This document shows positions 5,665 through 57,640 of a DNA stretch of 57,640 nt, piece after piece; the first letter of the stretch is position 1, and every line of letters begins with the position of its first letter. Location: positions 1-57,640 of the forward strand of contig JAQWNC010000022.1 in the NCBI GenBank assembly GCA_029246505.1, in the 5' to 3' direction. The DNA comes from Arenicellaceae bacterium (lineage in GTDB: Bacteria > Pseudomonadota > Gammaproteobacteria > Arenicellales > Arenicellaceae). The notes below the pieces were generated by a model that ran no database searches, was not told where the DNA came from, and saw only the letters and a list, made by a program, of their open reading frames with translations. Both the position numbers and the translations under genes were made by a program.

Positions 5665-6690
5665 TCAATTTGTCGGCGCATGCCCGAGCTCCGGCACGCA
5701 GTCAAAACGGCCCACTTGAAGATCTGTTCGAACGAAGGTTCTCGTGCCGCGTTGGATGCCAGTATAATAAGCAGCATCGTTTGCCGTCCACGCAAGATGC
5801 AGCAAGCCAGTCTCTGGCTCGACCCACAACTTTTCGGTTGTGGAAAGGTCAGCAGTGTTGAGTCTCCCGGCCCAAAGCGCACCCGCACGATAGCCTGTCG
5901 TCTCAATATAGAGCGCGTCATCCTCGAATCGAGCGATTGAATAACCAAGGTCCGTTGGGGCTGGGTCGGAGTACCCGGTCCCGTCGAATTGGATAACGCG
6001 ATGCACGTCCATAAACTCGTGACGGATGTGGATTTCATCCCCCTGTCTCGAAATACTCGACGGTAGCCCCGGCGCTCCCCAAGCCCGAATATTGCTGGCG
6101 GGATTACATCTTAAGGTTGGGTTCTGCATCTCCCAGTCGAATGCAGCGTGCACGGCCTCACCTTCTCGCGTCAATAGACCCTGGGAGTCCGCGGCGCTTC
6201 CAGCATCCACGAGGTAAGCGTCCGGATACCAGGTGCCTACGATACTCGTGTCCCCTTCTATTATGGGCGCCCCGAATACCGCTTCGCCATCGCGGTGTCG
6301 AAGCGCCAGATCTGTTCCGTCCTGAAAGTGAGCAATGGCGAGTTCACATCCCATCGGATCACTCCTCGATACAAAGCCCTCGATCGTGATGCTAGTGCCA
6401 ACCGCGAAATGCTCAGCACTAACCCCTCGCCGTTCAAGTTGCACGCGAGATTGCATCTCGCACCAACGCGCTTCGATCTCACCTGCTTCATTTACTGTAT
6501 CGAGATAAACGAACGCGTGAGGATTAACGAACTGGTAATCGGTAACAACGCCTGTCAAAGACACGTACACGTCTCTGTCGTAGTGCGACGACCAACCGTG
6601 ATGTGCTACTGCCTGGCCAGTCCATAGCATAGCTATTGTGACAAAGTGCGCCAAACGCACCTGCTTAATAGTCTCAATTCTGGTAGACAT
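5665..6690 (-). CDS. DUF6152 protein fused to a diverged C-terminal secreted domain
   Basis: 341 residues. The ATG is preceded by GAGAGGAC; a TTG one codon earlier is possible. The signal peptide ends QAVA, immediately followed by HHGW, so mature protein would start with His. DUF6152 occupies about 30-130 with the constant NPHAFVYLD and RRG elements. The remainder (to 341) has GTWYPD, LRCNPAS and HRVIQFDGTG, which look like a diverged form of the domain B seen in the fusions at 40-42 kb. Secreted; activity unknown. A 65-bp element shared with the DoxX promoter lies upstream. Confidence 0.75.
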   Translation of the reverse strand: MSTRIETIKQVRLAHFVTIAMLWTGQAVAHHGWSSHYDRDVYVSLTGVVTDYQFVNPHAFVYLDTVNEAGEIEARWCEMQSRVQLERRGVSAEHFAVGTSITIEGFVSRSDPMGCELAIAHFQDGTDLALRHRDGEAVFGAPIIEGDTSIVGTWYPDAYLVDAGSAADSQGLLTREGEAVHAAFDWEMQNPTLRCNPASNIRAWGAPGLPSSISRQGDEIHIRHEFMDVHRVIQFDGTGYSDPAPTDLGYSIARFEDDALYIETTGYRAGALWAGRLNTADLSTTEKLWVEPETGLLHLAWTANDAAYYTGIQRGTRTFVRTDLQVGRFDCVPELGHAPTN

Positions 6691-6819
6691 CAAATTTCGT
6701 CCTCTCTAATAGTTTCGTTCGAACCACATTAGCTGCATGCTGAACACCACACTTTTAGTATCGTTACCCGAATCAAATCCAATAGCAATATAGCTCGGGG
6801 TAAATATATCACCGAATGT

Positions 6820-6885
6820 CCGTTAATTACCCAAAGTGATGATTAATACCCACAATTCTGGTAATTCTGAGCAAGACACTAAAAT
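6820..6885 (-). promoter_or_regulatory. Shared upstream element, copy 2 (before DUF6152 gene)
   Basis: Minus strand: GTGGGTATTAAT (6842-6853) and TTTGGGTAATTAAC (6822-6835), spaced 20 bp, preceded by GCTCAGAATTA. It lies 130-195 bp upstream of the DUF6152 start and just beyond the 3' end of the cytochrome gene. See copy 1 at 436-500 for the comparison. Confidence 0.5.
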
Positions 6886-6893
6886 GAGAGTTC

Positions 6894-7445
6894 TCACTGC
6901 ACTTGACTACGATCGATGAACCCATCGTGATTGGGCATTTGCACTTGGGCAAAGCTGTTTTTATCCAGTACAAAATCCCTGGTCACAATTCCATTCATAT
7001 TGAGTACATAGGCTACCACCTGATAGACCTCGGCATTACTCAAGGACTTTGGGGCGGTAGGCGGCATGGCGCGCCTTACATAGTCGAACACGGTGCTGGC
7101 AAAAGGCCAATAGCTACCAACCGTCAAATTTGGAGGTGTACTAGTCGTTGAACCACCCACTAAAATAGGTACGCTAGGGCCTCCCTCACCTTGCTGACCG
7201 TGGCATGCAGCACACTGCTCTTCATAGACAAGCTGCCCTTGCGCAGCCGTACCACTACCGGAAGGCAAGCCACGCCCATCAGGTTCGACAATAAGATCCC
7301 ACCCTTGTAAGTTAGCTTCACTTATTGGCTGCCCTAGCATGATTTGTCCCGTATCATTCATAGACGCAGTGCCACACCCCATAAGTATTAAGCTGGTTAA
7401 GACCAGCGCAGTAACGCTGAGTATACTCAATTTAGGCATAAACAT
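6894..7445 (-). CDS. Lipoprotein monoheme cytochrome c, electron acceptor of the SoxC-like enzyme
   Basis: 183 residues: lipobox LMGC (Cys24), one heme site CAACH at 78-82 in QCAACHGQQGEGG, and a likely axial Met127 in RRAMPP. This is the arrangement of class I cytochromes partnered with sulfite or sulfane dehydrogenases (SorB/SoxD-like). SoxD proteins usually carry two hemes; only one is visible here. AAGGAGAGG precedes the ATG, which lies 14 bp inside the end of the dehydrogenase gene, so the pair is co-translated. It probably passes electrons from the molybdenum centre to the respiratory chain. Confidence 0.85.
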   Translation of the reverse strand: MFMPKLSILSVTALVLTSLILMGCGTASMNDTGQIMLGQPISEANLQGWDLIVEPDGRGLPSGSGTAAQGQLVYEEQCAACHGQQGEGGPSVPILVGGSTTSTPPNLTVGSYWPFASTVFDYVRRAMPPTAPKSLSNAEVYQVVAYVLNMNGIVTRDFVLDKNSFAQVQMPNHDGFIDRSQVQ

Positions 7446-9018: not shown

Positions 9019-12000
9019 TTAAAACCTAAAGGTAGTCACACCTGCGGCGAGTTCTTGTAGCCCAATGAGTTTATTAATGACTTCCTCGACCGAGGTTTCA
9101 TTAAGATTGTGTCGTTCCGCAACATCAGTCACAGCCCTTTTGATGGCCTCGATTTGGCGTTGCCGAAATTCCAGAGTTTTGGCACTTTCAGGTTTATTCT
9201 GTTGTTCGACCAGCTCTTCTATTAGTTCAAGCTCAGCGTCTAGTATATAGCTGAGTCTTCGCGCCGTTTCCAGAACCTCCTCGGGCCGATCGGAAAAATA
9301 CGCAGCAGAAATACGTGCTGTATATAAGTCCGGATTTGGGTAAATCGCAATAGCGAGATCAATTATTTGCCAAGCATGGGCGGCTAGGTCAGTTCGACGC
9401 TCGGTATTGGCAAGGTTATTACGCCATTCAACCATTAGCTTCGTAGCCTCAACGAACCATAAGTCGGTCGGTCTCGATTGCGAAAACAATGGGTCGAGAT
9501 TGGCTAGAGTTTGCCAGTCCTGGCTAGCAATCGCTACTCTACCCGCGACTACCGCCTTGGCAGGCCCAGATAATGCTTCGGCAATTTTTACTATATACTC
9601 ATCTGCAGACCCTTGAGCCAATTGAGCTAACCAGGGTTCTATCATCGCGTATCGGGCTTGATCGCCGCCAGGCCCCGAGGGTGCCGCCAATACGGCATTG
9701 GCGAGAACTTTTTGAGATTCTTCTAAATCACCCTGGCGTTTAAGGCCCAAACCGGTAAGCAACTGTGCTTGTGAATTACCACTTTTTTCCAGAGCTTCTG
9801 CGAGGGCAATGCTGTAAGGCCGAATATCCATGTCTTCGAATCGACTTGATACGTAAGCAAAATTTGCTGCACTCAATTCGGTGTGTACCCAGCTATCGGG
9901 GTTGAGCACTGGCACATACGGTTGAAGCAGTGTGATCAGCCCGACCAGTCCCAGTTGATTTTCAGATTCGATAGCCGCCAATGATTCTGTTGCCATGCGA
10001 TTAAAATTGTCTGTCAGCAGGTCCGCATCCTTCGAAAATGACCGTACACCCTCAGTGTCCATCAGTAATCCAGAAAGTAAATCCTCGGGCGATGCCAACC
10101 CTTGATGATAGTAAAATACTGGCGAGTCTATAATTGGTCTGCCGGTAGCAGCTAATTCTAATTCTGTATTCATGGCTTGCTGTGATCCAACAAAAAACAA
10201 TACATCCGGAAATAGTTGATAAACTTTCACATACTCGAATACGTCTAACATTGTCGCGCAAAGGCTTCGCAGCAATGATTCGCTTAAAAATTGCCCGGCC
10301 ATCCACTGCAGAAAAACCCCGTCATCGGTTAAATGATCGGCAGCTAACGCCATGTACTCACGGGTATATAAATGCGAAGCGCCGGCAGTCCAGGGATGAG
10401 AGGGTTGGGATATAATCGCGTCGTAGGTCTTATTGGTTAGGCTCAACGCACTTCGTGCATCGTTGATATAAAGCTTTAACCTCGGGTCTTGTAATGGGTC
10501 TAAAACCCGCAGATCGCCAGCCAGCACATTGGCTTCAATAACTTTAGGCTCAAGCTCGATTACGTCAATTTCTTCAACAGATGGTGGAACACCATTTACT
10601 GCATTACCGCCGCCCAATCCAACGATAAGCATAGACTTTGCATCCGGGCGGATTAATCCTGGTAAACTCGCTAGCATATGTTGAGTGTTACGTGAGGGGG
10701 GCGAACCGAGGAATTCAGTACCAGCTTCGGGGAGCCCATTATTGCGAAGTCCTAGCGTGCCCTCCTCGCGGGTCATTAATACTGTGGATGAGCGACCCAC
10801 TTCATAGTATAAAATTTCGCCTTTGGCGCGATCATCAATTGGCGAGGTGCGTAAAATATCTTCTGGAAGCAGCGGATTATAAGTGACGAGTAGCAGTGCG
10901 AAAATCGCGGCCATACTACCGAAAAATGCCGGGCGAACCTTGGTAACAAGCGCCGCAGTAGCGAGTCCAAGAAGAATATTGGTCAGCACGACAACTTTGA
11001 TGGCACCTTCGTATTTAAGTGCAGGAATAAGAAAAAATCCGGCAAATGCAGCGCCAAAAATCGCACCCACGGTATTCCATGAATACACTTTTGCTGAGGA
11101 TCGGGCAGCTCCGGCTGCACTATTGGTATAGATTCGCACCGCCAAAGGAAATGTGGCACCGATAAATAAGGTTGCAGGCAATAGAATTGCAATGGCGATG
11201 CCAACATTGCCGCTTAGTCCTTGTTCGGCCGGAATAGCCAGGTGCAGCCATTGGTATATTCCCATCGAGGTAAATGCTATACCGGCTTGTACAATTATGA
11301 AGGCTCGCACCGAACGCTCGCTCGTGGTAGCGAAACGAGAGGCGAGCGCACTCCCTATTGCGATACCGGCGAGAAAGCTGGCTAGCATGGTCGCAAAAGC
11401 AGTAACACTACCACCCAAAATATGTGACAGAAGGCGGGTCCACAAAACTTCATAGACAAAACTGGTGGTGCCTGAAACCAACATGATGGGCAGAATGAAG
11501 CGTGTACCCAAGCCCGTCGACCCAGTAGCCGGTTGGCTAATTTCGCTCACATCGGCATCTACTCCGTTGTTTTCCTCAAGAACTTCGGCGTTTACCTGTG
11601 TCGTTAGTTCAGAAGTTGATTCAGCATCTATTTCGGGTGCGCGTTTGGCGATCGCCACCGCCAAGAAAAACACCAGTAGGTTGACAGCGACACCGAACCA
11701 AACGGTGCCCTTAAGGCCCATTGCAGGTAGCAACACAAATGCCGCGACGATTGTTCCCAGCACTGCACCAACGGTATTGATAGCGTATAAAGCCCCGACT
11801 CGTGAACCAACCTGGCTATCGGCTGTTACTGCATAGCGTGTCAGTAGTGGCAGGGTAGCTCCCATACAGGCGGTCGGGATTGCCAGCACAATAAAGGCAA
11901 CTACAAAGTAAAAGATGGACTGGCCTATCCCACTGGCATCAGCTGGTTCTGGTTGGCCACCAAGTATTTCAGCGTAGGCCCAGCTCGCCAGCCCAAGTAA

Positions 12001-12285
12001 TACCGGTACCATCAATGCAGATCCGGCAATTGAAGCCTCTAGTATCCCGTAAGTGAACACCGGGCGCTTGACTCGGCTAATATATTTTCCAGCGAGGGCA
12101 GCGCCTAGCGCCAGGCCGCCCATGTAAGCTGACAATACGGTTGCGATTGCTAGCTCAGAGGTGCCAAACACAGTGGAAAACTGTCGCATCCACGCCGTTT
12201 GATAAAGAAGAGCTGCAAATCCGGACAGTAGGAAACAGGCGCAAACACCTAGGTAAATAAATTGATCGTTTTTATTTTCTGGCAC
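9019..12285 (-). CDS. Fused MFS-like membrane protein / spermidine synthase-like protein (copy 1)
   Basis: 1,088 residues from a GTG start with no clear ribosome site. The N-terminal ~470 residues are a many-helix membrane domain with a repeated theme (FLLSGFAALLYQTAWMRQF; later GTTSFVYEVLWTRLLSHILG) typical of 'fused MFS/spermidine synthase' proteins. A Rossmann domain follows: MLIVGLGGGNAVNG, VDVIELEPKVIEAN-like segment and YDAIISQPSHPWTAGASHLY. The last ~350 residues are helical, TPR-like. Actual spermidine synthesis is doubtful because the catalytic Asp region reads SQPSHP. Lies 26 bp downstream of its paralogue; probably co-transcribed. Confidence 0.8.
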   Translation of the reverse strand: MPENKNDQFIYLGVCACFLLSGFAALLYQTAWMRQFSTVFGTSELAIATVLSAYMGGLALGAALAGKYISRVKRPVFTYGILEASIAGSALMVPVLLGLASWAYAEILGGQPEPADASGIGQSIFYFVVAFIVLAIPTACMGATLPLLTRYAVTADSQVGSRVGALYAINTVGAVLGTIVAAFVLLPAMGLKGTVWFGVAVNLLVFFLAVAIAKRAPEIDAESTSELTTQVNAEVLEENNGVDADVSEISQPATGSTGLGTRFILPIMLVSGTTSFVYEVLWTRLLSHILGGSVTAFATMLASFLAGIAIGSALASRFATTSERSVRAFIIVQAGIAFTSMGIYQWLHLAIPAEQGLSGNVGIAIAILLPATLFIGATFPLAVRIYTNSAAGAARSSAKVYSWNTVGAIFGAAFAGFFLIPALKYEGAIKVVVLTNILLGLATAALVTKVRPAFFGSMAAIFALLLVTYNPLLPEDILRTSPIDDRAKGEILYYEVGRSSTVLMTREEGTLGLRNNGLPEAGTEFLGSPPSRNTQHMLASLPGLIRPDAKSMLIVGLGGGNAVNGVPPSVEEIDVIELEPKVIEANVLAGDLRVLDPLQDPRLKLYINDARSALSLTNKTYDAIISQPSHPWTAGASHLYTREYMALAADHLTDDGVFLQWMAGQFLSESLLRSLCATMLDVFEYVKVYQLFPDVLFFVGSQQAMNTELELAATGRPIIDSPVFYYHQGLASPEDLLSGLLMDTEGVRSFSKDADLLTDNFNRMATESLAAIESENQLGLVGLITLLQPYVPVLNPDSWVHTELSAANFAYVSSRFEDMDIRPYSIALAEALEKSGNSQAQLLTGLGLKRQGDLEESQKVLANAVLAAPSGPGGDQARYAMIEPWLAQLAQGSADEYIVKIAEALSGPAKAVVAGRVAIASQDWQTLANLDPLFSQSRPTDLWFVEATKLMVEWRNNLANTERRTDLAAHAWQIIDLAIAIYPNPDLYTARISAAYFSDRPEEVLETARRLSYILDAELELIEELVEQQNKPESAKTLEFRQRQIEAIKRAVTDVAERHNLNETSVEEVINKLIGLQELAAGVTTFRF

Positions 12286-12311: not shown

Positions 12312-15300
12312 TTACTGCACAACTAGCTTCAAGTCTTGAAGGCGTTCGGCAAGGCCATCAAGGCCCGTTTGAATATCCCTCTTCGTTGATTGTGTTACCG
12401 CTTCATTGTCCGCTGATACATCGACAAGTTTAGTGATCGCCTCAAGTTGATTCAATTTAAGATCAAATTCGGCTGCTGTAGGAGAAATATACCCTTCTTC
12501 AACCGCGGATAGTAGGAAATCAATCGTATCTATGTATCCCCGAGTGCTTTGCATAACTTCGTTAGCCCGTCCGGCTTGAGATGCCGCCACGATTCGCATA
12601 GTAAGAAATTCGTGGTCGCGCTGGTTGGCAATTCCAAGATCGAGTATTTGCCACGCCTGATCCGCAAAGTCCCGTTTTAGTTCTTCATTGCTAACGCCGC
12701 TACGCCAGTCAACTCTAAGTTTTACCGCTTCGGTAAACCATAGGTCGGCAGGTCCGGCTGCACCAAGCTGTCTATCAAGGTCAGCGACCGCTTGCAGGTT
12801 TTTAATGCCTATTGCTTTTGACGCTTCGATCACTGCACGGCCGCTGCCGCTCATACTTTCCGCTATTGTTTGGATCGCTTCAGGGGTTTGCTCTTGATCA
12901 AGCCGCCTAAGCCAAGGCTCCACCAAAGCGTACTTCACTTGATTATTATCTGGCATGGCAACGAATGCTGCTTCAAGCATTTCTTGTGCTCGCTCAGTAT
13001 TTCCCTCTGAACGCATTAATTTGCCAGCTAATAGCAAGGCACGTGGGTTTCCTGCGGTGGTTAATGTACCGACAAGTTCGGGTAAATAGGCACGGACTCC
13101 TAAAGAGACGTATTTATCTGCAATACGTGAAAACACGAGGTCCTCACCAAGCTCTTTGTGTACCCAGCTTTCGGCATTCAGCGCCGGAATCCATGGCTGG
13201 AAGGTAGTTTCGAGTTTTTCTACGCTCAGTACCCGCCCCTCGCGCATCAATCGAGCAGACTGCATCGCCATCATATTAAAATCATCGGTGATTAAACGAC
13301 TGCCTGAGGCGAATTCTTTTGCTCCGTCGGTATCCATCATCAGTGCGGCGACTGCATCTTCGACCGTAGCGATGCCAATCTCCAAATAAAATAATGGTGC
13401 ATCACGCAGTGGCCGGCCGCTGGCAAACATTTCTCTTTCTACGTCCATTGGTTCGTGTGAAGCTAGAAAGAATAAGACTTGAGATGACCACTGGTAAATA
13501 CGCACATGCGGGTAAACATCCAGGATCGTGGCGCATAAACTTTTAAGTAACGCCTCGTCAACAAATTGGCTATTAATCCACTGTAAAAACACACCGTCGT
13601 CTGACAAATGGTCTGATACGATTTGCATATATTCTCGCGTATACAGATGAGATGCCCCAGCACTCCACGGGTGGGACGGTTGCGATACCACCATGTCGTA
13701 TTTTTTCGTCGTCAGGGCAAGCGCGCTCCGCGCATCGTTAATAACTAACGAGACCCGCGGGTCGTCCAGTGGTTTGTATTTGCGTCGATCACCAATACTG
13801 CGATTTGCTTCAATCACCTTCGGCTCAAGTTCGATCACATCTACTTCTTCTACAGTTGGCGGTAGGCCAGTTATTGCTGTACCAGCTCCAAATCCGACAA
13901 TAAGAGCTGTTTTGGTATCAGGCCTTGCTAAAACAGGCATGGCGCCTAGCATACGTTGGTTCGAGAATAAATGAGGTGTTCCCTGAGGCACCGCTGCAGC
14001 TTCTGGTAGGCCATTATTCCTTAACATAAATGAGCCATCATCTTCGTAAACAAGCACAGTCGCGCTACGGCCAACGTCGTAGTAGATGATATCGCCCGAG
14101 GCGCTAGTGGTAATCGGAGAGTAGCGCAGCACATTCTCCGGAATCATTGGCTGATAGACTATTACGATGACTCCAAGTGCGGCTGCGGAGACAAACAGTG
14201 GTATGCGACGCGTAGCTGCAATCATGCTTGCGGCAACCACGGCTAGACCGGTATTCAATAGTACGGTTAGTCGAATTGCACCCTCATATTTCAGCATGGG
14301 TACCAGAAAAAATCCGGCCACCGCAGCGCCCAAAATCGCTCCCACAGTGTTCCAGGCATATACCCGGGCAGATGACTGTGCTGCGACATTGGCACCACTG
14401 GCATAAATACGAACCGCGAGTGGAAAAGTTGCACCAATAAATAGCGTTGCAGGCATGAGCACCAAGAAAGCAGCTAGTACGGTAGCTTGATAGTCCATGT
14501 CTGGTTGTAAAAATTGATTCAAGCAATAGTAGATCAATACCGATGCAGCAGATATGCCTAATTGGCTGATAACAAATGCAATTGTGGCTTCTATTCGGTT
14601 TCTGGCAAATCGGCTGGCGATTATGCTGCCGAGCGCAATCCCACTAAGAAAGCTTGCGAGCATCACCGCGAAAGCCGTAACGCTACCGCCAAGAATGTGC
14701 GATAACAGTCGTGTCCAAAGTACTTCGTAAACAAAAGTGCAAACGCCCGATAAAGTCATTATCGGCAGAATCATCCATAAGTAGCGATAATTTGGGTCGG
14801 TTTCAGTCTCAGCTGAAGGCTCCGAAGGAGAATCTACTTGCTGAAGTTCAGTTGTCGCTGATTTTTTGGCAACAATCACTGCAATTACAAAGACCAGAGC
14901 ATTTACTGCGACGCCGCACCGGACTGTGCCGCGCAGTCCTAATTCAGGCAAAAGTACAAACCCTGCTACTACGGCACCTAAAACCGCCCCCAATGTATTT
15001 ATAGCGTAAAGGCTTCCAACCCGATTACCAATATGATCGTCCTGAGTAACTGCGTAGCGAGTCAATACCGGCAATGTCGCCCCCATACAAGCCGTTGGAA
15101 CGACTAGCACTATAAAGGCGACGACAAAATAAAATACAGACTGTCCAATACCAGACGCGTCGGGTACTGTTGCTTGCCCCCCCAAAATAGAAACGTATAA
15201 AAAGCCTGTTGCAGATAGCAGGACTGGCACCATCAGTGCCGAAATGGCGATCGTGGCCTCCAGAATTCCGTAGAAATACACCGGTCGACGAATTAATTGT

Positions 15301-24139: not shown

Positions 24140-24526
24140 CTACTCAAGAGTTTCCCTAAGCGAAACGTCGGTACCATCAGGTAGCACCATTTTTCGGATC
24201 ACCATTGCTTTGCCTTCGTTTCTCGCGGTAAATCCGGTAAAAGTCACTTTATCACCTGGTTGGAGGGAGTTTTTGGTCCAGCCCCCTCGCGCCATGCGAT
24301 TAGGGGCGGTTAATTCTCCATGCCAATGCTGAACCTCGCCATTGGCGTCGGTAAAGTCAAACATCACTTGTACATGTGGGTTGATAAAACGAAATTCTGT
24401 AATAGTCGCTTTAACTTCCAACAAATCATTTGTGTATGCGGCTCTGCCATGATGAGCAGTAGCGGAGTTTCCAGATAGCAACACAATCAGACCGGTTAAC
24501 AAAGAGGTATATATTTTGACTCGCAT
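24140..24526 (-). CDS. DUF6152 secreted protein (single domain)
   Basis: 128 residues: signal peptide ending SATA, directly followed by HHGRAAY, then EFRFINPHVQVMF, GEVQHWHGELTAPNRMARGG and VLPDGTDVSL. The predicted mature protein starts with His-His and carries the constant NPH. The family function is unknown to me. It closes the operon 26038 > 25522 > 24670 > 24140, in which a very similar DUF6152 copy (25522) lies on the other side of a domain B gene. TGGAGCAC precedes the ATG. Confidence 0.8.
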   Translation of the reverse strand: MRVKIYTSLLTGLIVLLSGNSATAHHGRAAYTNDLLEVKATITEFRFINPHVQVMFDFTDANGEVQHWHGELTAPNRMARGGWTKNSLQPGDKVTFTGFTARNEGKAMVIRKMVLPDGTDVSLRETLE

Positions 24527-24669: not shown

Positions 24670-25455
24670 CTACTCGTCCAGAAAACTCTCGAACGCGCCA
24701 AAATCAAGGTAGTCGCCGGAACAGCTAATTTCGCTGAGCTCCCAGCTCGGTGGTGCTAATTTGAGGTAATGGGTTTCCGCAACCCATGGCTCAGCTAATG
24801 CGATAGGATCTTCTATTACCACATCGATCTCCAGATTCAGGTTGTCGATGCGGCGAAACGTTTCGGTTACTCGCATCTGGTCACTATGTTGAACACCAGT
24901 TCGGTCCATCCAGGTTCGTTCATCAATACCGACAGTAGTAACCACAAATGTAGTATCGTCTTCCCAGGCACCTACTGAATTCCCCAGCCATAATGCGACC
25001 GGGTCCTCTGGGTTTGCCCGACCATCAGTAAAGATACGACGAATTGTGTGGTCGTACTCATACAGCAAGATGGTTTGCTTTTCGGTATAGACGACCTCAA
25101 ATGGATACGGATGAAAGTAAACTCGGGGAACGCCCGGTGGATAGCATCGCGTGAGGACCGGATCGTTCGTTTCTCCAAGCGCGAACCCTCCTGCATTAGA
25201 GTTTTTCGCGGTATCAAAGCGTTCTTGACCCCAATCAGTGAGTTTTGGTGGTTCGGCGGTCCAGGTGGATCCGCTAAAAAATTTATCGTCGGGTCGGACT
25301 CTAGTCCAAACACCGGTCAGGTCTTTAGTCGGCGCGGGTCCGTTTTCGTACGCTTTTAGCTCCACTGGTTGGCCAGAACCATACTGCGCAAAACCTGTAC
25401 TGAAAAAGCCCAACATAGCAAACAATATGAAACCGACATTTATTAACTGGCGCAT
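24670..25455 (-). CDS. Secreted 'domain B' protein of unknown function
   Basis: 261 residues with signal peptide (LFAMLGFFSTGFAQ). The body shows DLTGVWTRVRPDDKFF, a single Cys-Pro segment (RCYPPGVPRV), HPYPFEVVYTEKQ, RIFTDGRANPEDP, GNSVGAWEDDTTFVV and MRVTETFRR. The same ordered landmarks appear in the gene at 39723 and as the C-terminal half of the DUF6152 fusions at 40565, 41703 and 56595. A small beta-barrel fold is likely; the family name is unknown to me. It sits between two single-domain DUF6152 genes, all downstream of an NHL propeller gene. Confidence 0.7.
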   Translation of the reverse strand: MRQLINVGFILFAMLGFFSTGFAQYGSGQPVELKAYENGPAPTKDLTGVWTRVRPDDKFFSGSTWTAEPPKLTDWGQERFDTAKNSNAGGFALGETNDPVLTRCYPPGVPRVYFHPYPFEVVYTEKQTILLYEYDHTIRRIFTDGRANPEDPVALWLGNSVGAWEDDTTFVVTTVGIDERTWMDRTGVQHSDQMRVTETFRRIDNLNLEIDVVIEDPIALAEPWVAETHYLKLAPPSWELSEISCSGDYLDFGAFESFLDE

Positions 25456-25521: not shown

Positions 25522-25920
25522 TTATGGGGGAAGTATCCCGGCAGACCACGCGGGTGGGCTCGTTCCATCGGACAAAACAATTTCGGTGACTCTTATTGCA
25601 TTACTTCCGTTTCTAGCATGGTCGCCAGAAATTGTTACCTTGTCACCCGGCGTAAGCGTCGTTTTTGTCCAGCCGCCTCTGGAGAGTCTGTTGGGGGCAG
25701 TAATCTCCGCTTTCCAATGCTGAAGCTCCTCATCTTCGCCAATCACATCAAAGTATATTTGTGCGTGAGGATTAATGAATCGAAATTCAGTTATCGTCGC
25801 TTCCAAAGTAATTACGTTACCATCATCATAGGCTGCTCTGCCATGATGGGCAAACGTTGCCGTGCCCATGATCATCAGGCTTAGCCCTGTAACCATGGCA
25901 TTAATAAATTTAGTTCGCAT
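25522..25920 (-). CDS. DUF6152 secreted protein (single domain)
   Basis: 132 residues: signal peptide ending TATFA, then HHGRAAYDDGN, EFRFINPHAQIYFDV, HWKAEITAPNRLSRGGWTKT and EIVLSDGTSPP. Close paralogue of the product of 24140-24526, with the same predicted His-His N-terminus. AAGGGTC precedes the ATG at modest spacing. It follows the NHL gene by 118 bp and precedes the domain B gene by 67 bp on the same strand, suggesting one transcript. Confidence 0.8.
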   Translation of the reverse strand: MRTKFINAMVTGLSLMIMGTATFAHHGRAAYDDGNVITLEATITEFRFINPHAQIYFDVIGEDEELQHWKAEITAPNRLSRGGWTKTTLTPGDKVTISGDHARNGSNAIRVTEIVLSDGTSPPAWSAGILPP

Positions 25921-34057: not shown

Positions 34058-34059
34058 TC

Positions 34060-39243: not shown

Positions 39244-39693
39244 TTAGTTGCTACTTTTTTCTGCAGCTTGTTGGGCGCGCGCGCGGCGTTCTACTTCAAT
39301 TACATCATCATCGGAAACCAGAGGGTCGATGAATTCTGTGCCGTCGCTCAGCACGATACTTTCCAGCCAAATAGCCATTTTGCCGGTAGACGAGGGGTTG
39401 CCAGTCGCCGTGATCACTTCTCGATCACCAAACATATCGTCGGTCCAGCCACGTCGAGCTAATGAGAGTTTGCCCGGTGCTTCCACCACCCACTGTTCGG
39501 TTTCGCCATTTTCGTTCACTAGTTCCATAAACACTCGCGCGTGGGGATTTAGTAGATCAAATTTGACGACGGCTCCATGTAATGTGGTGTGCTTGGAAAA
39601 ATCAAACACACCTCTAAAGGAATGATGTGCTTGGGCAATGCTCGATAACAAGTAAGCGGTAAGTAAAAGAACCGCGCCAATAAGAGATTTCAT
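39244..39693 (-). CDS. DUF6152 secreted protein (single domain)
   Basis: 149 residues: signal peptide ending IAQA, then HHSFRGVFD, VVKFDLLNPHARVFMELVNE, WVVEAPGKLSLARRGW and SIVLSDGTEF, with a charged C-terminal tail (EVERRARAQQAAEKS). Predicted mature N-terminus is His-His, and the NPH is conserved. Domain B gene 39723 lies directly upstream and the amidohydrolase remnant directly downstream; spacing under 30 bp suggests one operon. Confidence 0.8.
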   Translation of the reverse strand: MKSLIGAVLLLTAYLLSSIAQAHHSFRGVFDFSKHTTLHGAVVKFDLLNPHARVFMELVNENGETEQWVVEAPGKLSLARRGWTDDMFGDREVITATGNPSSTGKMAIWLESIVLSDGTEFIDPLVSDDDVIEVERRARAQQAAEKSSN

Positions 39694-39722: not shown

Positions 39723-40550
39723 TTATTTAGTTGGGATTATGCAGCTCTCATAGGGGTAAATTTCTTCACTGGGAGCCCAGGTCCAGGCACGCCCCATAAG
39801 TAGCGGTTTTTGAAAGGTTACGGGATCCTGGAGAATTGCTTCGACTTCCAGGCGGTTACCTTTACCAAGCCCATCTCCGTCATTATTAACAACACGGGTG
39901 TAACGTTCCGTAACGGTTAATTGACTACTGTGCGCGAAACCAGCATTCGAGAAATTTGCGTTGATACCGGTGGTTTCGACAACCAGTATGTCTCCTTCAT
40001 AATGACCTACAGAGAATCCGAGTAAGCTTGACTCCAGGTCGGCTGGCGGCTCACGTCCGTCCAGATAGATCGTGCGTCGGGCCGTCCACTCCGAATAGTA
40101 AAAGCTTACGCGATCTTCGTGCTGGGTGATTTCAAAAGCGTGTGGAGCAAATATCTGGCGGGTGAACCCCCATGGGTCGCAAGCAGCGGACAGTGGCGCA
40201 GCGCTTCTGTCTCGGGGAAAATACTCCAGGGCAGAAGAGGTCAAATGACTCGGAATAATTTCGGCCATTTGTTTTCGTTGGGCTTCAGAGCGCAGCTCTG
40301 CATACGAACGATCGATATTGGCAGGATCATCGAGTATCTGGGTTAGGTAGTTTCGTCCTTCGATGGTGCAACCCACATGACAGTATGCGTCTTCTGCTCG
40401 AGGCGGGGGGTCGCTCCACATGCCGCTCAAGTCAGGAGTACTTTGCGCCGCACTCAGCATTGGCAATTGGGCGCACAGAACTAGCGCCATTGATATTAGT
40501 CCGCGATTCGCCTGTTGTTCCCCCAAGTATAAAAAACTGTTAATGCGCAC
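39723..40550 (-). CDS. Secreted 'domain B' protein of unknown function
   Basis: 275 residues from a GTG start without a clear ribosome site; an internal ATG at residue 21 would still leave a signal sequence (LVLCAQLPMLSAAQ). Shares with the product of 24670 the opening DLSGMWSD, the Cys segment AACDPWGFTRQIF, HAFEITQHEDRV, RTIYLDGREPPAD, GFSVGHYEGDILVVETTG and LTVTERYTRV. Two extra Cys (YCHVGC) may form a disulfide. It lies between a DUF6152-domain B fusion and a single-domain DUF6152 gene, on one transcript. Confidence 0.7.
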   Translation of the reverse strand: MRINSFLYLGEQQANRGLISMALVLCAQLPMLSAAQSTPDLSGMWSDPPPRAEDAYCHVGCTIEGRNYLTQILDDPANIDRSYAELRSEAQRKQMAEIIPSHLTSSALEYFPRDRSAAPLSAACDPWGFTRQIFAPHAFEITQHEDRVSFYYSEWTARRTIYLDGREPPADLESSLLGFSVGHYEGDILVVETTGINANFSNAGFAHSSQLTVTERYTRVVNNDGDGLGKGNRLEVEAILQDPVTFQKPLLMGRAWTWAPSEEIYPYESCIIPTK

Positions 40551-40564
40551 CTAATTATATCTAA

Positions 40565-41593
40565 TTAGTTAGGAACAAAGCGGCTGGTCGCTTCGAGGTC
40601 GCAATTAAATGGCGACATGTCACTCTGCGGAGCATAGCGTAAGTCTCGAGTATGCGTCATCGACCCAACGATATTCTCTGAATCCTCGAGTACGAACTCT
40701 ATTCTTATGTGGGATCCTTCATCGATAAGCTCGTATCTTTCTGTCACATGTTTTTGGGCTCCAGAAGGAACGCCATTTTGGTAAGGGGAACGGTGCGGTG
40801 CAAAGTTAGTTGTATCAATAAGAAGGACATCGTCTTCCCAGCTACCAATGGAGTGCCCCTCGTGAAACAGCTCGTTTGATGACGGGTGCGAGCGACCATC
40901 CATAAACACAGTGCGTACTTCATCAAAGTACTGACTACGAATCGTGATTGTTTCCTCGGGCTCGTCTAACACGATCTCCATTGGGTATAAGTCGGTATAG
41001 ATAATCATGGAGGGGGTTGGTTTGGATATGCAAGACAGCTCGGGGTTTTCTTCTGAGGCTTGGCTGTAAGCAGCTTCGGCGATTTTTGCTTTTTCGGTCA
41101 GCACAAGGTCGCGGATCATGAGCTGATCTAAACCACCAGGATAGTCGCTGGAAAGTCTCGAACGGTCGGCTATCCATCGGCCTTCCAAAGTGGCGGCGCG
41201 TGCTTCCGATATGGCGCGTCGTCTTTCGCTCGGTCGCGCTAACAGGGCGATGCCATCCGCTTTCTTTATCGAGTAGATTAACCCGTAAGTTCGTCCATCG
41301 CGCGCGGGATTAACTCCCACGGTCACATAATCGCCTATGGCTAAGGTATCTCGATTCCAACCAAGGCGAGTCATCGTTATTGAAGATGCCATTTGCACAT
41401 TCCACTCGATTTTTTCACCAGATTCGCCAGCAGCATCGACTGTGAAATAAGCGTGCGGATTTCTAAAACTGTACTCAGTAACTACGCCCTCGAAAGTGAC
41501 GACTTCGTCCATGGATAGTGCAGCGTCGCTATGATGAGCAAATACTGGTGTAATAAGTAAATAACATGCTGTAAATATCGTCGTATATTTCAT
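40565..41593 (-). CDS. DUF6152-domain B fusion protein (copy 1)
   Basis: 342 residues from the ATG at MKYTTIF, preceded by TAGGAGATATT; a longer frame from 41629 is less likely. Signal peptide ends PVFA followed by HHSDAALSMDE. DUF6152 part (about 20-125): EYSFRNPHAYFTVDAAGE, QMASSITMTRLGWNRDTLAI. Domain B part (about 140-342): LEGRWIADRSRL, LSCISKPTPSMIIYTDLYPM, RTVFMDGRSHPSSNELFHEG, IGSWEDDVLLIDTTNFA and TERYELIDEG, ending CDLEATSRFVPN. Tandem paralogue at 41703 and a third at 56595. Upstream, its RBS and first codons are duplicated (41606-41657). Confidence 0.78.
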   Translation of the reverse strand: MKYTTIFTACYLLITPVFAHHSDAALSMDEVVTFEGVVTEYSFRNPHAYFTVDAAGESGEKIEWNVQMASSITMTRLGWNRDTLAIGDYVTVGVNPARDGRTYGLIYSIKKADGIALLARPSERRRAISEARAATLEGRWIADRSRLSSDYPGGLDQLMIRDLVLTEKAKIAEAAYSQASEENPELSCISKPTPSMIIYTDLYPMEIVLDEPEETITIRSQYFDEVRTVFMDGRSHPSSNELFHEGHSIGSWEDDVLLIDTTNFAPHRSPYQNGVPSGAQKHVTERYELIDEGSHIRIEFVLEDSENIVGSMTHTRDLRYAPQSDMSPFNCDLEATSRFVPN

Positions 41594-41657
41594 AATATCT
41601 CCTAAACTGGTGTAATAAGTAAATAACATGCTGTAAATATGGTCGTATATTTCATAA
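41544..41657. repeat. 62-bp-period tandem duplication of the 5' end of a DUF6152 fusion gene
   Basis: Positions 41544-41595 and 41606-41657 are 52-bp direct copies differing at one base. On the minus strand each contains ATGAAATATACGAC and the following signal-peptide codons. The upstream copy is therefore a short ORF, MKYTTIFTACYLLITPV plus stop (41655-41602), whose stop codon overlaps the TAGGAG ribosome site of the real gene starting at 41593. This creates a leader peptide in the 5' untranslated region. Confidence 0.9.
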
Positions 41658-41702: not shown

Positions 41703-42731
41703 TTAATTCGGGACAAATCGTCGGGTGGCTTCAATGTCGCAATCAAATGGCGACATATCACTCTCCGGGGCGAAGCGCACATCCCGGCTGTGGGTCATTG
41801 ATCCAACAATGTATTCCGGGTCTTCAAGAACGAACTCAATAATCATATGGGCACCGTCTTCAATTAGTCGATACCGTTCCACGACATGTTTTTGGGGGCC
41901 AGATGGAATGCCATTTTGGTAGGGGGAACGGTGTGGCGTAAAGTTTGTCGTATCGATGACTAGAACATCATCTTCCCAGCTACCAATGGAGTGGCCTTCG
42001 TGAAATAGTTCGCTAACCGGTGGGTGCGGGCGTCCATCCATATATATCGATCGTACTTCGTCAAAATGTTGGCTACGGATAGTAATTGTTTCTCCGGGCT
42101 CGTTTAGGCTGATCTCAATAGGGAATAAATCAGTATAGATAATCATTGACGGCGTGGGTTTGGAAATACAGGAAAGCTCTGGATTTTCTTCGGAGTCTTG
42201 ATTGTAAGCCTCCGTTGCGGCTTTTGCCTTATCGGTTAAAACCAGGTCGCGTATCATCAGTAGATCCAAGCCTTCCGGATAGTCGTCTGGAAGCCTTGTG
42301 AGGTCAGCAAACCATCTGCCTTCGATGCTGGATGCAAGAGCGTTGGATACCGGCCTCGGTCGTTCTTCGGGTTGGGTCAGCAGGGCAACCCCATTGGCTG
42401 TCTTAAAGGAAGCTATAAGCCCATAACTTCGTCCATCGCGAGCTGGATGGACACCAACGGTTATGGAATCTCCGATAGCTAAAGTTTCGCGATCCCAGCC
42501 CAAACGAGTCATGGTAATCGAAGAGGCCATTTGTACTGTCCATTCGATCTGCTCAATGTTCTCTCCCACGGTATTGACTGTGAAATAGGCGTGCGGATTT
42601 CTCAAGCTGTACTCAGTGACCACGCCCTCGATGGTGACGACTTCGTCCATGGACAGCCCTGCATCGCTGTGATGGGCGAATGCCAGCGAGCTAAGTAAGC
42701 AACATAAGGCAAGTATTGACGTATATTTCAT
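41703..42731 (-). CDS. DUF6152-domain B fusion protein (copy 2)
   Basis: 342 residues from the ATG at MKYTSIL, chosen by alignment with copy 1; a start six codons earlier (MSGKKS) is possible and neither has a strong ribosome site. Signal peptide ends AFA, then HHSDAGLSMDE. DUF6152 (EYSLRNPHAYFTVNTVGE, SSITMTRLGWDRETLAI) and domain B (LEGRWFADLTRL-like, LSCISKPTPSMIIYTDLFPI, RSIYMDGRPHPPVSELFHEG, IGSWEDDVLVIDTTNF) match copy 1 almost line by line, so this pair is a fairly recent tandem duplication. It follows the LVIVD propeller gene by about 60 bp. Confidence 0.78.
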   Translation of the reverse strand: MKYTSILALCCLLSSLAFAHHSDAGLSMDEVVTIEGVVTEYSLRNPHAYFTVNTVGENIEQIEWTVQMASSITMTRLGWDRETLAIGDSITVGVHPARDGRSYGLIASFKTANGVALLTQPEERPRPVSNALASSIEGRWFADLTRLPDDYPEGLDLLMIRDLVLTDKAKAATEAYNQDSEENPELSCISKPTPSMIIYTDLFPIEISLNEPGETITIRSQHFDEVRSIYMDGRPHPPVSELFHEGHSIGSWEDDVLVIDTTNFTPHRSPYQNGIPSGPQKHVVERYRLIEDGAHMIIEFVLEDPEYIVGSMTHSRDVRFAPESDMSPFDCDIEATRRFVPN

Positions 42732-42792
42732 AGATTTTTTACCCGACATTAAATGATGTATTGCGCCATTGGTTTTGATCGTTGACGCTTAT

Positions 42793-50450: not shown

Positions 50451-51429
50451 CTTCTGGAACCCTCACTCCCACAAGATGATCGCGGGAGATAATGTTAGCA
50501 AGTTTAGCCTCTGTCCAGTCCTCGGTGCCTTTCGGCCGTTGAGGCAATATAAGGTAGCGCATGTCAGCATTTGAATCATGCACCCTTACTTCAACATCGT
50601 CTGGAATGATGGTGCCAAATTCAGCCAAAACCTTACGCGGTTCATGTACGACACGAGATCGATAGCTGCGAGATTTATACCAACTTGGAGGCATTCCAAG
50701 AAGGCTACGTGGGTAACATGAGCAAAGGGTGCATACGACCATATGATGAGTTTGCTCGCTCTGCGGCATACAGATGATTTCTGCAAATGATTCTAGCTTT
50801 AGACCCATATCGATAATTGCGTTTTTTGCATCACGAATTAGAAATTTTCTAAATTTTGGGTCTGTCCAAGCCTTGGCGACAACGGCAATACCACGGGCAG
50901 GGAACACGTTATCGAACTGCTCAATTTTTTGCAGCACATTCTGCATGGTAATAAGCTCGCGGTCGACGAGCAGCTTTGCCACAGCAAGCATATCGAAGTA
51001 ATAGCTGGGCGGCCCCTCACCGGCCTCATCTTCCTGGAAATCGTTATCGTGGTGGTGGTGCTCTTCCCCATCGTGTAAATGGGTGATACTTTTCGGGTTT
51101 GGTAGATCGATTAAGGGTACTTCGAATTCCTTTTCTGCTTTTGTGCGAGCTAGCTGAAGCTCTTCTTCTGTGAATAGTTCACGCTCAAGGCATCTATGAA
51201 CCAATGCAAGCCCATTGCGTTCAAAGTAGGGCATTTTAAAATATTCATCACCAAACGATTCGGCCGAGAGTCTAAGCTCATCCAGAGTGATTACTTTGCG
51301 TGCAGACACCGCACCACGAATACCATTAGAAAATTTTTCCCAATGTGTCATGCCACTATCTAAGGTGTCTATTGGGTCACTAAACTCGCCACCGACATCA
51401 TGTGGCCCCATCTTTAAGTCTTGTTCCAC
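50440..51429 (-). CDS. Nitrile hydratase/thiocyanate hydrolase: beta N-domain fused to alpha, His-rich linker
   Basis: 329 residues from a GTG preceded by GGGAGGG. Residues 1-105 are a beta-subunit N-terminal domain (MGPHDVGGEF, MTHWEKFSNGIRGAV, YFKMPYFERNGLALVHRCL). A linker follows with His117, His119 and four consecutive His at 124-127. From about 142 comes a complete alpha subunit: GIAVVAKAWTDPKFRKFL, the metal claw VCTLCSC (Cys233, Cys236, Cys238), then SYRSRVVHEPRKVLAEFG and RYLILPQRPKGTEDW. The Thr in CTLCSC is the cobalt-type signature. It hydrates nitriles to amides or, less likely, hydrolyses thiocyanate. No activator gene is visible nearby. Confidence 0.88.
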   Translation of the reverse strand: MEQDLKMGPHDVGGEFSDPIDTLDSGMTHWEKFSNGIRGAVSARKVITLDELRLSAESFGDEYFKMPYFERNGLALVHRCLERELFTEEELQLARTKAEKEFEVPLIDLPNPKSITHLHDGEEHHHHDNDFQEDEAGEGPPSYYFDMLAVAKLLVDRELITMQNVLQKIEQFDNVFPARGIAVVAKAWTDPKFRKFLIRDAKNAIIDMGLKLESFAEIICMPQSEQTHHMVVCTLCSCYPRSLLGMPPSWYKSRSYRSRVVHEPRKVLAEFGTIIPDDVEVRVHDSNADMRYLILPQRPKGTEDWTEAKLANIISRDHLVGVRVPEDVI

Positions 51430-55706: not shown

Positions 55707-55790
55707 TCCTATCCCTACGCCGGTACTAACCGGATCAGGTTCATAGGGTTCACCACTTAAGGTATCTCAGGCTTTCACCACCCCCTAGGA
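55707..55790 (-). promoter_or_regulatory. TPP riboswitch (THI element)
   Basis: On the minus strand: P1 TCCTA/TAGGA, then GGGGGTG, the invariant CTGAGATACC, ACCTGATCCGGTTA and GTACCGGCGTAGGGA. These are the two conserved halves of the TPP aptamer in the right order. It lies 66 bp upstream of the TonB receptor ATG and would reduce expression of the thiamine operon when thiamine pyrophosphate is abundant. No obvious terminator follows, so control of translation start is more likely. The 55,791-56,103 gap upstream holds nothing I recognise. Confidence 0.95.
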
Positions 55791-56103
55791 CGTCACTTTG
55801 TGACTCGCACCATTGTAGAGAGCTAAGATATATTTACCAGACTTTTTAAATTTATTTAGTCCGCTTCCGGTTTTTATAGACAGAATTTTTGCACTTGGGG
55901 GTTAGTCCCATATCGCGTAGATACTGGTAGAGGATTATATAACGGTATTTTATTTCCAGAAGGTGAATGATCGCTTTGAGTACAAGATATGTGAAAACTC
56001 AAAAACGGCTGCTTGAGATCGTTTTTAAGCGCAGCTAATTTTAACTGAAATCAGTCCGTTTGCTCACTGGGCTGGATTATCTCTAAAGCTGGTAGGCATC
56101 GTT

Positions 56104-56364
56104 TTACATCGCATTGGACACGTGCTTCACAAAGCGCGATACGTAAACTTGGCACAGTTCCTTGATCGTGTGGTCGCAAACGCTTTCGTGAAACACGGAT
56201 TGCCACGTTTTAGCGAATGACCAGAAAGTGGCCGGCGCATGGGCACGGATTGCCAAGCTTTCGGGGCGAGGTGCGCCGCGAACGCGACATCGTTCAAGTT
56301 CAGCCTGCATATCTGGGTCGGTGAGAGTGTCTGGGTCGATGTAACTGATGCCTTGTTTAGTCAT
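56104..56364 (-). pseudogene. Carboxymuconolactone decarboxylase-like gene, 3'-truncated
   Basis: 86 residues from the ATG at MTKQGISYIDPDTL. The sequence follows CMD-family (AhpD-like) proteins: TDPDMQAELERCRVRGAPRP, ATFWSFAKTWQSVFHESV and DHTIKELCQVYVSRFVK. Family members go on with the CxxC/CEYCG active-site segment and about 80 more residues; here the frame ends right at that point. An overlapping frame contains VQCDVKR, so a frameshift near the active site may be involved. No strong ribosome site. Confidence 0.65.
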
Positions 56365-56594
56365 ATTAATGAAACTTTTAGTTTTCTCTAATATCTTCTG
56401 ACAGATTTGCAATAAATAATAACGCATTATGAAGCTAATACTTTAAGCCAAAATCTGTATTATAATAAACTAAGGACTCAGGCATATTAGGGTTAACATT
56501 GCTGCTATCGTATTAGAATCCGTCAACCTCATTATACTGGTCAATTTATTCACCTATAAAAGGCTAGTTTAATAGAACCAAAAGTTACATTAAT

Positions 56595-57640
56595 ATGACT
56601 AAACTTCACGTAATTACCTTTTGTATCACCAGTCTGCTCATCGCCCCCAAGGGGTTTGCTCACCACAGCGACGCAGGACTCGATATGAAATCTTTCATTA
56701 CTTTCGAGGGTACCATTACTGAGTATACCTGGCGCAACCCGCACGTTTATATCGGCGTCGAGACACAGAACGACGACGGTGAACAAATAGAATGGGCGCT
56801 ACAAACCAGTTCGACAATGACAGTTACTCGTATGGGCTGGACGCAAGATTCACTATCTCCCGGAGAGAAGGTTACCGTGGTGGCTCATGCAGCACTTGAT
56901 GGTCGACTTTACGGATTAGTCGAGTCAATTGAAAAAACCGACGGTACACTCCTGAGTAGTTCGTTCTTTAGTGCTTCTGGTGAGCCTAAGTTGGAAATAG
57001 TCATTTCAGACGAGCGTGCGACTTCGCTGGAAGGCAAGTGGATAGCAGACGGCGATAAACTCGTTGACTACCCCGGTGGATACGATGGGTTTTACAGGGC
57101 ACAACTGGTTCTTACCGAAAAAGCGAAAGCCGCTCAAGCTAGTTTAATAGAACTTTCAGAGGAGAACCCAGAATCAACCTGTATTGGCCGGCCTACGCCA
57201 GGAATGATTCTGTCAACGGTCTATTATCCAATAGAGATCGCATTCCAGGAAGAGCAACAAACCATTACGCTACATTCAGAGTACTTCGATGATTTACGTA
57301 CCGTCTATATGGATGGACGTAGCCACCCTGACAGCAGTGAACGATTTACCTCAGGCCATTCTATTGGACGATGGGAAGAGGATGTCTTGATAGTGGACAC
57401 GCGCAATTTCACCGATCACCGATCACCTTATCAAATCGGTGTGCCCTCAGGTCGACAAAAGCACGTCGTCGAACGATATCAAATGATTAATGACGGAGCA
57501 GGCGCAACGATCGAGTTTGTTCTTGAAGACCCTGAGTACATCGTCGGGTCACTATCTCATTCGCGTGAGATGATCTTTGCACCACAAATGACGCTATCTC
57601 TCTTCGATTGTGACGTGGAGTCGACCGGTCGGTTCGTGCC
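56595..57640 (+). CDS. DUF6152-domain B fusion protein (copy 3, reaches window edge)
   Basis: 348 codons plus two bases, open at the edge; related copies end one residue beyond the last visible RFVP, so nearly the whole gene is here. Signal peptide ends PKGFA, then HHSDAGLDMKS. DUF6152 landmarks: EYTWRNPHVYIGVETQND, TSSTMTVTRMGWTQ. Domain B: LEGKWIADGDKL, STCIGRPTPGMILSTVYYPI, RTVYMDGRSHPDSSERFTSG, IGRWEEDVLIVDTRNF. More distant from the two tandem copies at 40565 and 41703 than those are from each other. It is on the plus strand, separated from the other copies by 14 kb. Confidence 0.8.
   Translation, partial: MTKLHVITFCITSLLIAPKGFAHHSDAGLDMKSFITFEGTITEYTWRNPHVYIGVETQNDDGEQIEWALQTSSTMTVTRMGWTQDSLSPGEKVTVVAHAALDGRLYGLVESIEKTDGTLLSSSFFSASGEPKLEIVISDERATSLEGKWIADGDKLVDYPGGYDGFYRAQLVLTEKAKAAQASLIELSEENPESTCIGRPTPGMILSTVYYPIEIAFQEEQQTITLHSEYFDDLRTVYMDGRSHPDSSERFTSGHSIGRWEEDVLIVDTRNFTDHRSPYQIGVPSGRQKHVVERYQMINDGAGATIEFVLEDPEYIVGSLSHSREMIFAPQMTLSLFDCDVESTGRFV

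Follow-up and report, generated by a model that had tools for sequence, protein, structure and literature searches.

DUF6152, a secreted His-His protein family with a predicted OB fold and a barrel partner, occurs in about a hundred copies in an Arenicellaceae genome

Seven genes of DUF6152 (Pfam PF19649), a protein family without assigned function, lie on contig JAQWNC010000022.1 of an Arenicellaceae bacterium, of which we analysed a stretch of 57,640 nucleotides (nt; hereafter the window, meaning this whole stretch). We propose, with a probability of roughly 55%, that DUF6152 is a secreted oligonucleotide/oligosaccharide-binding (OB)-fold domain with an N-terminal histidine metal site which, together with a ligand-binding barrel, has been duplicated to deal with many compounds, likely by oxidation. 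This proposal rests on the conservation of the histidines, the signal-peptide cleavage context as judged by sequence, the predicted folds of the two domains, their fusion, adjacency and co-occurrence, and the low level of replacement change between orthologs; from these results we infer a bound metal with brace geometry, a barrel ligand and its oxidation. An earlier reading of the window made from its letters alone (the sequence-only reading) had noticed the His-His starts of the seven proteins, an observation that is right but understated, as it included neither the roughly 100 copies in the genome nor the OB fold predicted here nor the partner barrel.

Results

Conserved histidines in an expanded family

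All seven window proteins match PF19649 (60.7 to 91 bits, E 1e-16 to 5e-26, with a curated cut-off of 27 bits), in agreement with the family to which the sequence-only reading had assigned them; NCBIfam gave no match for them at E up to 1, and none of the seven matched the Pfam models of LPMO, CopC, CusF, DUF4198 or DUF6702 at E up to 10. Four are long (342-354 amino acids (aa), the copy at 56595 being incomplete) and three are short (128-149 aa). Translation bears out the motifs reported for them: an Ala at the end of the apparent signal peptide is followed directly by His-His (HH) in every copy (AVA-HH, ATA-HH, TFA-HH, AQA-HH, VFA-HH, AFA-HH and GFA-HH), the Asn-Pro-His (NPH) said to sit some 30 residues further on is present in 7/7 with its His 26-28 residues past the first His, and the downstream (R/G)-x-G-W ascribed to most copies recurs in six of the seven, the gene at 5665 reading RRGV instead. 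Without its protein context, the Ala-His-His motif is merely mildly enriched, since a plain DNA search of the window returned 14 matches where 7.55 were expected.

The source genome (2.64 Mb, 97.5% complete, 30 contigs) contains 100 DUF6152 matches across 20 contigs. An own-genome set was built by adding 50 stretches around non-window copies to the window copies, and three of the 100 matches were dropped, namely C1:66503 with an in-frame stop, the fragment C23:48371, and C10:88801, which keeps NPH in a frame whose start seems late and in which HH was not seen. HH stands at the N-terminus of all 97 readable copies and hence is not there by chance. The residue preceding it is Ala in 78, Gly in 12, Ser in 6 and Pro in 1; the signal-peptidase -3/-1 rule is satisfied exactly at the first His in 95/97 copies and at +1 to +4 in 0/97, while the median distance from the end of the best hydrophobic stretch to that His is 6 residues. 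The rule by itself is no proof of the cleavage site, because it is also satisfied at -2 (43/97), -5 (30/97) and +5 (64/97). A crude background from the same stretches, comprising 271 other secretion-like genes, holds HH at an allowed site in none and a single His in 8. Judged by sequence only, the mature secreted protein would thus carry His at position 1, as LPMO-type histidine-brace proteins do.

The second motif is reached by 95/97 own copies and keeps Pro-His (PH) in all 95 (NPH in 88), at 25-31 residues after the first His (H1). In an alignment of the 93 own copies with at least 80 mature residues, whose median pairwise identity is 26%, exactly four columns are invariant: H1, the second His (H2), and the P and H of NPH. 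A second conserved His, the other feature of LPMO-type braces, is therefore present in 93/93 aligned copies.

The same pattern extends to other genomes, from which we collected 322 unique DUF6152 domains, 317 of them with room for the N-terminus. HH is kept in 315/317, including all weak matches that were fetched on purpose, and PH in 314 of the 315 HH-bearing domains, the exception (L213) reading SNH with the His retained. Conservation of His directly after the cleavage site, the check to which the sequence-only reading had tied its brace idea, accordingly held both within the source genome and outside it. The 79 primary foreign loci offer no independent proof of HH or NPH, because they were found with patterns containing those residues; the less biased test is the own-genome set together with the loci and regions based on hidden Markov models, bearing in mind that the Pfam model itself spans the HH and NPH columns. 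The sole HH-less domains among the 317 are candidate natural inactive or altered copies: L350 (frame +721) has lost HH and PH together, so that all three His are gone, and L343 (frame -2273) has RH and SH in their places.

The distribution of DUF6152 is patchy, with explosive expansion in several lineages. A genus relative of the source genome has 40 matches, whereas none were found in 19 other genomes sampled from the source's family (11) and order (8), nor in any of 14 control genomes. Broader sampling recovered the family in 7/276 gammaproteobacterial genomes, six of which, besides the source, have one divergent copy each, and in 10/119 genomes of a sample drawn from the phylum of a Bryobacterales genome, taken as Acidobacteriota. 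Between 13 and 98 copies are present in twelve genomes reached via named loci, two gammaproteobacterial metagenome-assembled genomes (MAGs) among them having 91 and 98; one of the twelve seems to be the genus relative itself, as identical places are listed. Part of the candidates were scored in these multi-genome scans, so that copy numbers there are lower bounds. The six single gammaproteobacterial copies (L205-L210) are all of a divergent AHHGW type.

A predicted OB fold

AlphaFold2 modelled the short protein of 25522 in its mature form, from an alignment of the 93 own copies, with a predicted local distance difference test (pLDDT) score of 90.5. The model has strands at residues 7-23, 30-36 and 42-48, a helix at 52-57 and strands at 70-78 and 84-92, in the order E-E-E-H-E-E (E, strand; H, helix), NPH falling in the loop that links the first strand to the second. 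The DUF6152 domain is accordingly predicted to adopt an OB fold: the best Foldseek rows are lysyl-tRNA synthetases (LysRS), SSB and PriB, and the 50 matches listed by the structure comparison VIA are mostly SSB and PriB at Z 7.9-8.9 (PriB 8.9, row 50 at 7.9). A sequence search for a solved relative of the domain returned nothing better than PriB at E 0.056. Structures of the CopC, LPMO and CusF types are not among the fold matches listed by Foldseek and VIA, which excludes nothing; nor does the OB-like character of the model, with PriB and SSB best among the matches listed, exclude the Ig-like beta-sandwich of LPMO and CopC. To our knowledge, the OB fold is unfamiliar among histidine-brace proteins, and a search of the open literature for a histidine brace with an OB fold found no paper.

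A predicted barrel partner, fused or next door

In the AlphaFold2 model of the long protein of 41703 (pLDDT 92.9, predicted template-modelling score 0.89), the C-terminal part (about residues 115-303) forms a beta barrel whose first strand is followed by helices. Nearly all of the 50 VIA matches listed for this barrel, over residues 115-303, are of fatty-acid- or retinoid-binding type (Z 8.6-9.3); those of the fatty-acid-binding protein (FABP) type lead and superpose with a root-mean-square deviation of 3.0-4.5 over 107-130 residues. We predict from this model that the partner domain is a lipocalin/FABP-like barrel. An hhalign comparison (E 9e-37) shows free-standing barrels to be homologous to fused ones. 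Eight free barrels, once aligned, all have AQ at the end of the apparent signal peptide and an invariant G and W (8/8) in a GxW motif, which on the first strand is a motif of lipocalins and FABPs; among fused barrels the W is invariant in 12/12 and the G variable. At E up to 1 no Pfam model matches the eight free barrels, for which NCBIfam gave just two stray rows (at E 0.11 and E 0.19); a comparison of the barrel with PDB sequences found no relative.

A barrel profile found 90 places in the source genome, 62 fused to DUF6152 and 28 not. All but four of the latter (24/28) lie at most 2.5 kb from a DUF6152 gene, although at least three of these 24 (C23:48497, C27:5974 and C16:56156) look like the barrel half of a long copy that is interrupted or partial; the other four comprise three cut by contig ends and one with a stop. 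Seen from the other side, 25/38 short or truncated own DUF6152 copies have a barrel within 2.5 kb. The 79 foreign loci hold 104 unfused DUF6152 domains, 94 of them with a free barrel at most 1.5 kb away (in 84 cases the nearest lies on the same strand); seven barrels there are fused, and 131/156 free barrels lie at most 1.5 kb from a DUF6152. DUF6152 and the barrel were found in the identical 10/119 genomes of the Acidobacteriota sample; in the gammaproteobacterial sample, where part of the candidates were scored in some genomes, the barrel was found in the source genome and one other (G041). Taken together, fusion, adjacency and co-occurrence indicate that OB domain and barrel form a functional unit in the main lineage.

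Departures from the usual arrangement also occur. One locus (L069, G000 C20:61627-62865) has a single 522-aa frame with two tandem barrel matches beside a short DUF6152 gene. A short subtype of the source genome with no barrel within 2.5 kb (G000 C8:116931, C8:119890, C4:14859, C18:103618 and C1:54223) starts with HHSH and later reads RCH.L.D...GCLLG. The neighbour of one barrel-less short copy of this subtype (in L068) is a different, secreted-looking protein of 219 aa, and two neighbours of other such copies gave no Pfam match.

Old, distinct copies among varied neighbours

Comparison with two relatives gave reciprocal best pairs better than the best own paralog for 23 of the 50 copies sampled in one case and for 14 of 18 in the other. 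These ortholog pairs have median identities of 63% and 70%, a median proportion of synonymous differences (pS) of 0.80 and 0.77, with the synonymous rate (dS) saturated in 20 and 9 pairs, and a back-calculated median replacement rate (dN) of about 0.27 and 0.20; the median dN/dS of 0.19 and 0.09 comes from the 3 and 5 pairs with computable dS. A paralog above 60% identity exists for 12/93 own copies. Given the ortholog pairs, with their near-saturated synonymous and low replacement change, many copies are old, distinct and kept, and not recent duplicates.

Co-directional neighbours in the source genome were scanned for 102 of 105 listed partners (L049:11413-11838, L053:11303-11584 and window:5238-5546 were left out), a count that includes free barrels, unrecognised at that stage. 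Among the 25 commonest families listed, no Pfam family occurs in more than 4 partners; amidohydrolases, NHL propellers, metallo-beta-lactamases and peptidase-type hydrolases are followed by esterases, cytochromes c and sulfatases. The 79 foreign loci gave 85 partners after removal of barrels and DUF6152, the commonest being pyrroloquinoline quinone (PQQ) dehydrogenases and carboxypeptidase-regulatory domains at 5 each, with outer-membrane barrels at 4. A dedicated third component was considered and rejected, as neither the 102 own nor the 85 foreign partners showed a common third gene among the 25 commonest families listed for each. Because the catabolic neighbours differ from copy to copy, substrate diversification would seem to fit them better than metal homeostasis.

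One acidobacterial frame (L221, 2026-4854, + strand) contains DUF6152, with HH and NPH, together with PAS, HisKA, HATPase and receiver domains. Pro and Ala abound in its linker, and no membrane segment was flagged by a crude hydropathy scan that also overlooked the signal peptide. The frame may be a sensor fusion or else a read-through or assembly artefact; with no membrane segment evident, we did not use it as evidence of a sensor fusion.

Genes of the window

The DUF6152 genes and barrels of the window are collected in Table 1; both free-standing barrels are encoded by genes that had carried no annotation, and each adjoins a short DUF6152 gene.

Table 1. DUF6152 genes and free-standing barrels of the window
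Feature	Coordinates	Strand	Evidence	Detail
Long DUF6152 gene, fused C-terminal barrel 5671-6255	5665..6693	-	translation, Pfam, barrel profile	listed start TTG, ATG directly after; OB domain from HH at 6603 downwards
Short DUF6152 gene	24140..24526	-	translation, Pfam	mature HH start 24454
Free-standing barrel between two short DUF6152 genes	24670..25455	-	barrel profile, alignment	apparent signal peptide ends FA before Q; GxW motif present; Pfam search without match
Short DUF6152 gene, AlphaFold2 target	25522..25920	-	translation, Pfam, model	mature HH start 25848
Short DUF6152 gene	39244..39693	-	translation, Pfam	mature HH start 39627
Free-standing barrel adjoining 39244	39723..40550	-	barrel profile, alignment	PDLSGMW (GxW) close to likely mature N-terminus; Pfam search without match
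Long DUF6152 gene, OB domain and fused barrel 40574-41200	40565..41629	-	translation, Pfam, barrel profile	
Long DUF6152 gene, OB domain and fused barrel 41712-42335, AlphaFold2 target	41703..42749	-	translation, Pfam, barrel profile, model	
Long DUF6152 gene cut by window end, OB domain and fused barrel 57012-57638	56595..57640	+	translation, Pfam, barrel profile	

Elsewhere in the window, positions 29892-35070 (+) carry a DUF4198 gene (predicted mature start HF after AQA) followed by DUF6162, a ZnuA-type binding protein, an ABC ATPase, an ABC-3 permease and a second ZnuA-type protein; this is likely a metal-uptake operon, which would put a published N-terminal-His family (DUF4198) in the same window. 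On the minus strand, 9019-12285 and 12312-15512 encode tandem proteins of 1,088 and 1,066 aa with an MFS-like membrane half and a spermine/spermidine-synthase domain, and 50440-51429 encodes a single-chain nitrile hydratase in which the beta-subunit N-terminal domain precedes the alpha chain in one frame.

Discussion

In the mechanism that we envisage, the signal peptide of DUF6152, as a periplasmic protein, would be cut directly before HH, and the freed amino terminus, H1, probably H2, and the His of the NPH loop would form one transition-metal site of the N-terminal-histidine kind. Strong copper coordination is impossible before the signal peptide is cleaved, according to the histidine-brace review PMC10952591. 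In the main lineage, DUF6152 and the lipocalin/FABP-like barrel would work as a unit, either fused or from a neighbouring gene, with the barrel presumably holding a small organic ligand; duplication of this unit up to about a hundredfold would allow each copy to serve a different compound within a catabolic gene cluster of its own. Oxidation, at the metal site, of the compound held by the barrel would be the likeliest chemistry, and the fallback simple ligand binding. That DUF6152 is a metal protein, as the sequence-only reading had suggested, we infer with good support, because HH is near-universal and H1, H2 and PH are the sole invariant columns of the own-genome set; its more specific idea, a true copper histidine brace with two His and the amino terminus converging on one copper ion in a T shape, is one possible geometry for the site, and we do not claim membership in the copper brace family proper. 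Carried further, and only as a tentative possibility, the family could represent an unrecognised class of extracytoplasmic metallo-oxygenase or peroxygenase in which an OB-fold His-His metal site attacks a small hydrophobic molecule in a lipocalin-like barrel, radiated to as many as about 100 substrate-specific copies per genome in several unrelated lineages as an extracytoplasmic counterpart of cytochromes P450.

A number of observations weigh against our proposal, several of them concerning whether the histidines can converge. Canonical OB topology places the beginning of strand 1 at one end of the barrel and the strand 1-2 loop (L12) at the other, which speaks against a brace forming readily within one chain, and in the short-copy model residues 7-23 remain a single strand. 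The N-terminal segment differs between the short-copy and long-copy models, both of which are confident: in the latter, strand 1 runs from residue 13, and isolated strand or bridge residues at 7 and 26 look as if the N-terminus folds back onto the NPH loop. Covariation is similarly divided. An H1-H28 coupling from a first run (264 sequences) was false, produced by invariant columns, and was discarded; a rerun with these columns excluded and the set enlarged to 407 sequences recovers pairs that fit the OB strands (47-85, 16-72 and 34-42) and couples the aromatic residue 7 to 48, 75 and 84 (ranks 15, 18 and 34). In 90% of 30 bootstraps of the 407 sequences, residues 3-7 favour the near (NPH-loop) end, the near and far regions having been picked after viewing the couplings just listed. 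Against this, the smaller set coupled 6-81, toward the far end, 3 near pairs stand beside 4 far ones above z 2, and residues 3-5 have no lean when the long copies are taken by themselves. The covariation evidence on the placement of the N-terminus is thus mixed and does not decide. As for the partner, the barrel Z scores are middling and its best Foldseek match has E 2e-3; 13 of the 38 short or truncated copies in the source genome lack a barrel at up to 2.5 kb, G041 has barrels and no DUF6152 at threshold, and no barrel was detected in the six gammaproteobacterial genomes with a single divergent DUF6152. Moreover, neither neighbour scan lists a copper-handling family among its 25 commonest.

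Other explanations share part of this evidence. A role as metal carrier or scavenger, with tight binding of Cu, Ni or Zn that is then handed on and a barrel that binds a metallophore or a metal-ligand complex, seems to us rather unlikely. It has been proposed for the four secreted families found by their N-terminal His in PMC12537917 (2025), namely DUF4198, DUF6702, Anglerase-1 (Ang-1) and Anglerase-2 (Ang-2), which in that paper's description of them bind Ni or Cu, have weak or no oxidase or peroxidase activity and are read as mainly metal-binding or transport proteins; the window, too, holds a DUF4198 gene (predicted mature start HF after AQA) beside ZnuA-type uptake genes, as well as three TonB-dependent receptors. 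However, some 100 divergent copies in 2.6 Mb, many with kept orthologs, exceed any metal-uptake need known to us, and their neighbours are catabolic and varied, with metal-homeostasis families not among the 25 commonest listed for the 102 and 85 partners.

A ligand-binding or sensing unit without metal chemistry, with the three His contacting a partner protein or a ligand of acidic or aromatic nature and the barrel conferring specificity, would draw on the OB fold as a general ligand-binding scaffold, on the resemblance of the barrel to fatty-acid- and retinoid-binding proteins, and on the acidobacterial L221 frame that joins DUF6152 to PAS and histidine kinase domains. We regard it as distinctly unlikely, as an invariant His placed exactly where the mature protein likely begins is difficult to account for unless the free amino group is used, and the L221 frame, in the crude scan, has no membrane segment between its domains and may be artefactual. 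We give still less credence to the histidines being needed for processing, folding or an intermolecular contact, such as an SSB/PriB-like dimer with HH of one chain against NPH of the other, instead of an intramolecular brace. PriB and SSB, which are among the closest structural matches, dimerise through strand 1, and antiparallel pairing of this strand would set HH beside the L12 loop of the other chain and ease the topology problem, but contact within one chain would explain residues 7 and 26, the isolated bridges in the monomer model of the long copy.

N-terminal-His metal proteins form a short list, and each new fold widens the range of settings in which such chemistry can arise. If our preferred reading of a metal-bearing OB domain acting with a ligand-binding barrel is correct, DUF6152 would add an OB-fold scaffold to this list, from a family named by its DUF number alone and with a partner that has no Pfam model. 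With about 100 copies in 2.6 Mb here and 91 and 98 in two MAGs, these units are plausibly a main way in which such bacteria handle organic compounds, and the partner gene makes their function directly testable.

Relation to known systems

The sequence-only reading knew of no described function for DUF6152, and our search of the open literature likewise found no paper on DUF6152 or PF19649, most subscription journals lying outside that search. The barrel partner shares with the lipocalin/FABP superfamily, which is marked by an up-and-down barrel of 8 to 10 strands, a predicted beta barrel in which helices follow the first strand, the GxW motif in its free form and FABP-like best matches; it differs in having neither a Pfam match (8 members) nor a PDB sequence match, and in being tied to DUF6152 by fusion, adjacency and co-occurrence. 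The OB domain invites comparison with CusF, a periplasmic OB-fold copper chaperone with Met/Trp ligands: DUF6152, too, is by prediction a small periplasmic OB fold and is proposed to bind a transition metal, but it has no Pfam CusF match, and the Met/Trp ligands of CusF have no invariant counterpart in it.

The folds of the copper histidine-brace proteins (LPMOs, CopC, PmoF1 and pMMO) are Ig-like or cupredoxin, whereas that of DUF6152 is a predicted OB fold; they start with a single His and DUF6152 with His-His, for which copper and its geometry are conjectural. Common to both are secretion, a cleavage that exposes an N-terminal His, and a second conserved His further on (PMC10952591, in its description of the brace proteins).

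A parallel is also offered by DUF4198, DUF6702, Ang-1 and Ang-2, which, as PMC12537917 presents them, are likewise uncharacterised secreted bacterial domains with His1 after the cleavage site and further conserved His. The term '6152' does not occur in the main text of that paper, and DUF6152 differs from the four in its Pfam family, predicted fold, double His, paralogs by the hundred and barrel partner. Its near-universal His1 is not unique, because the conservation given there is 100% in Ang-1 and Ang-2 (79% in DUF4198 and 65% in DUF6702). The concept of an N-terminal-His metal protein is thus already known; what DUF6152 would bring to it is the OB scaffold, the double His, the barrel partner and the hundredfold paralogy.

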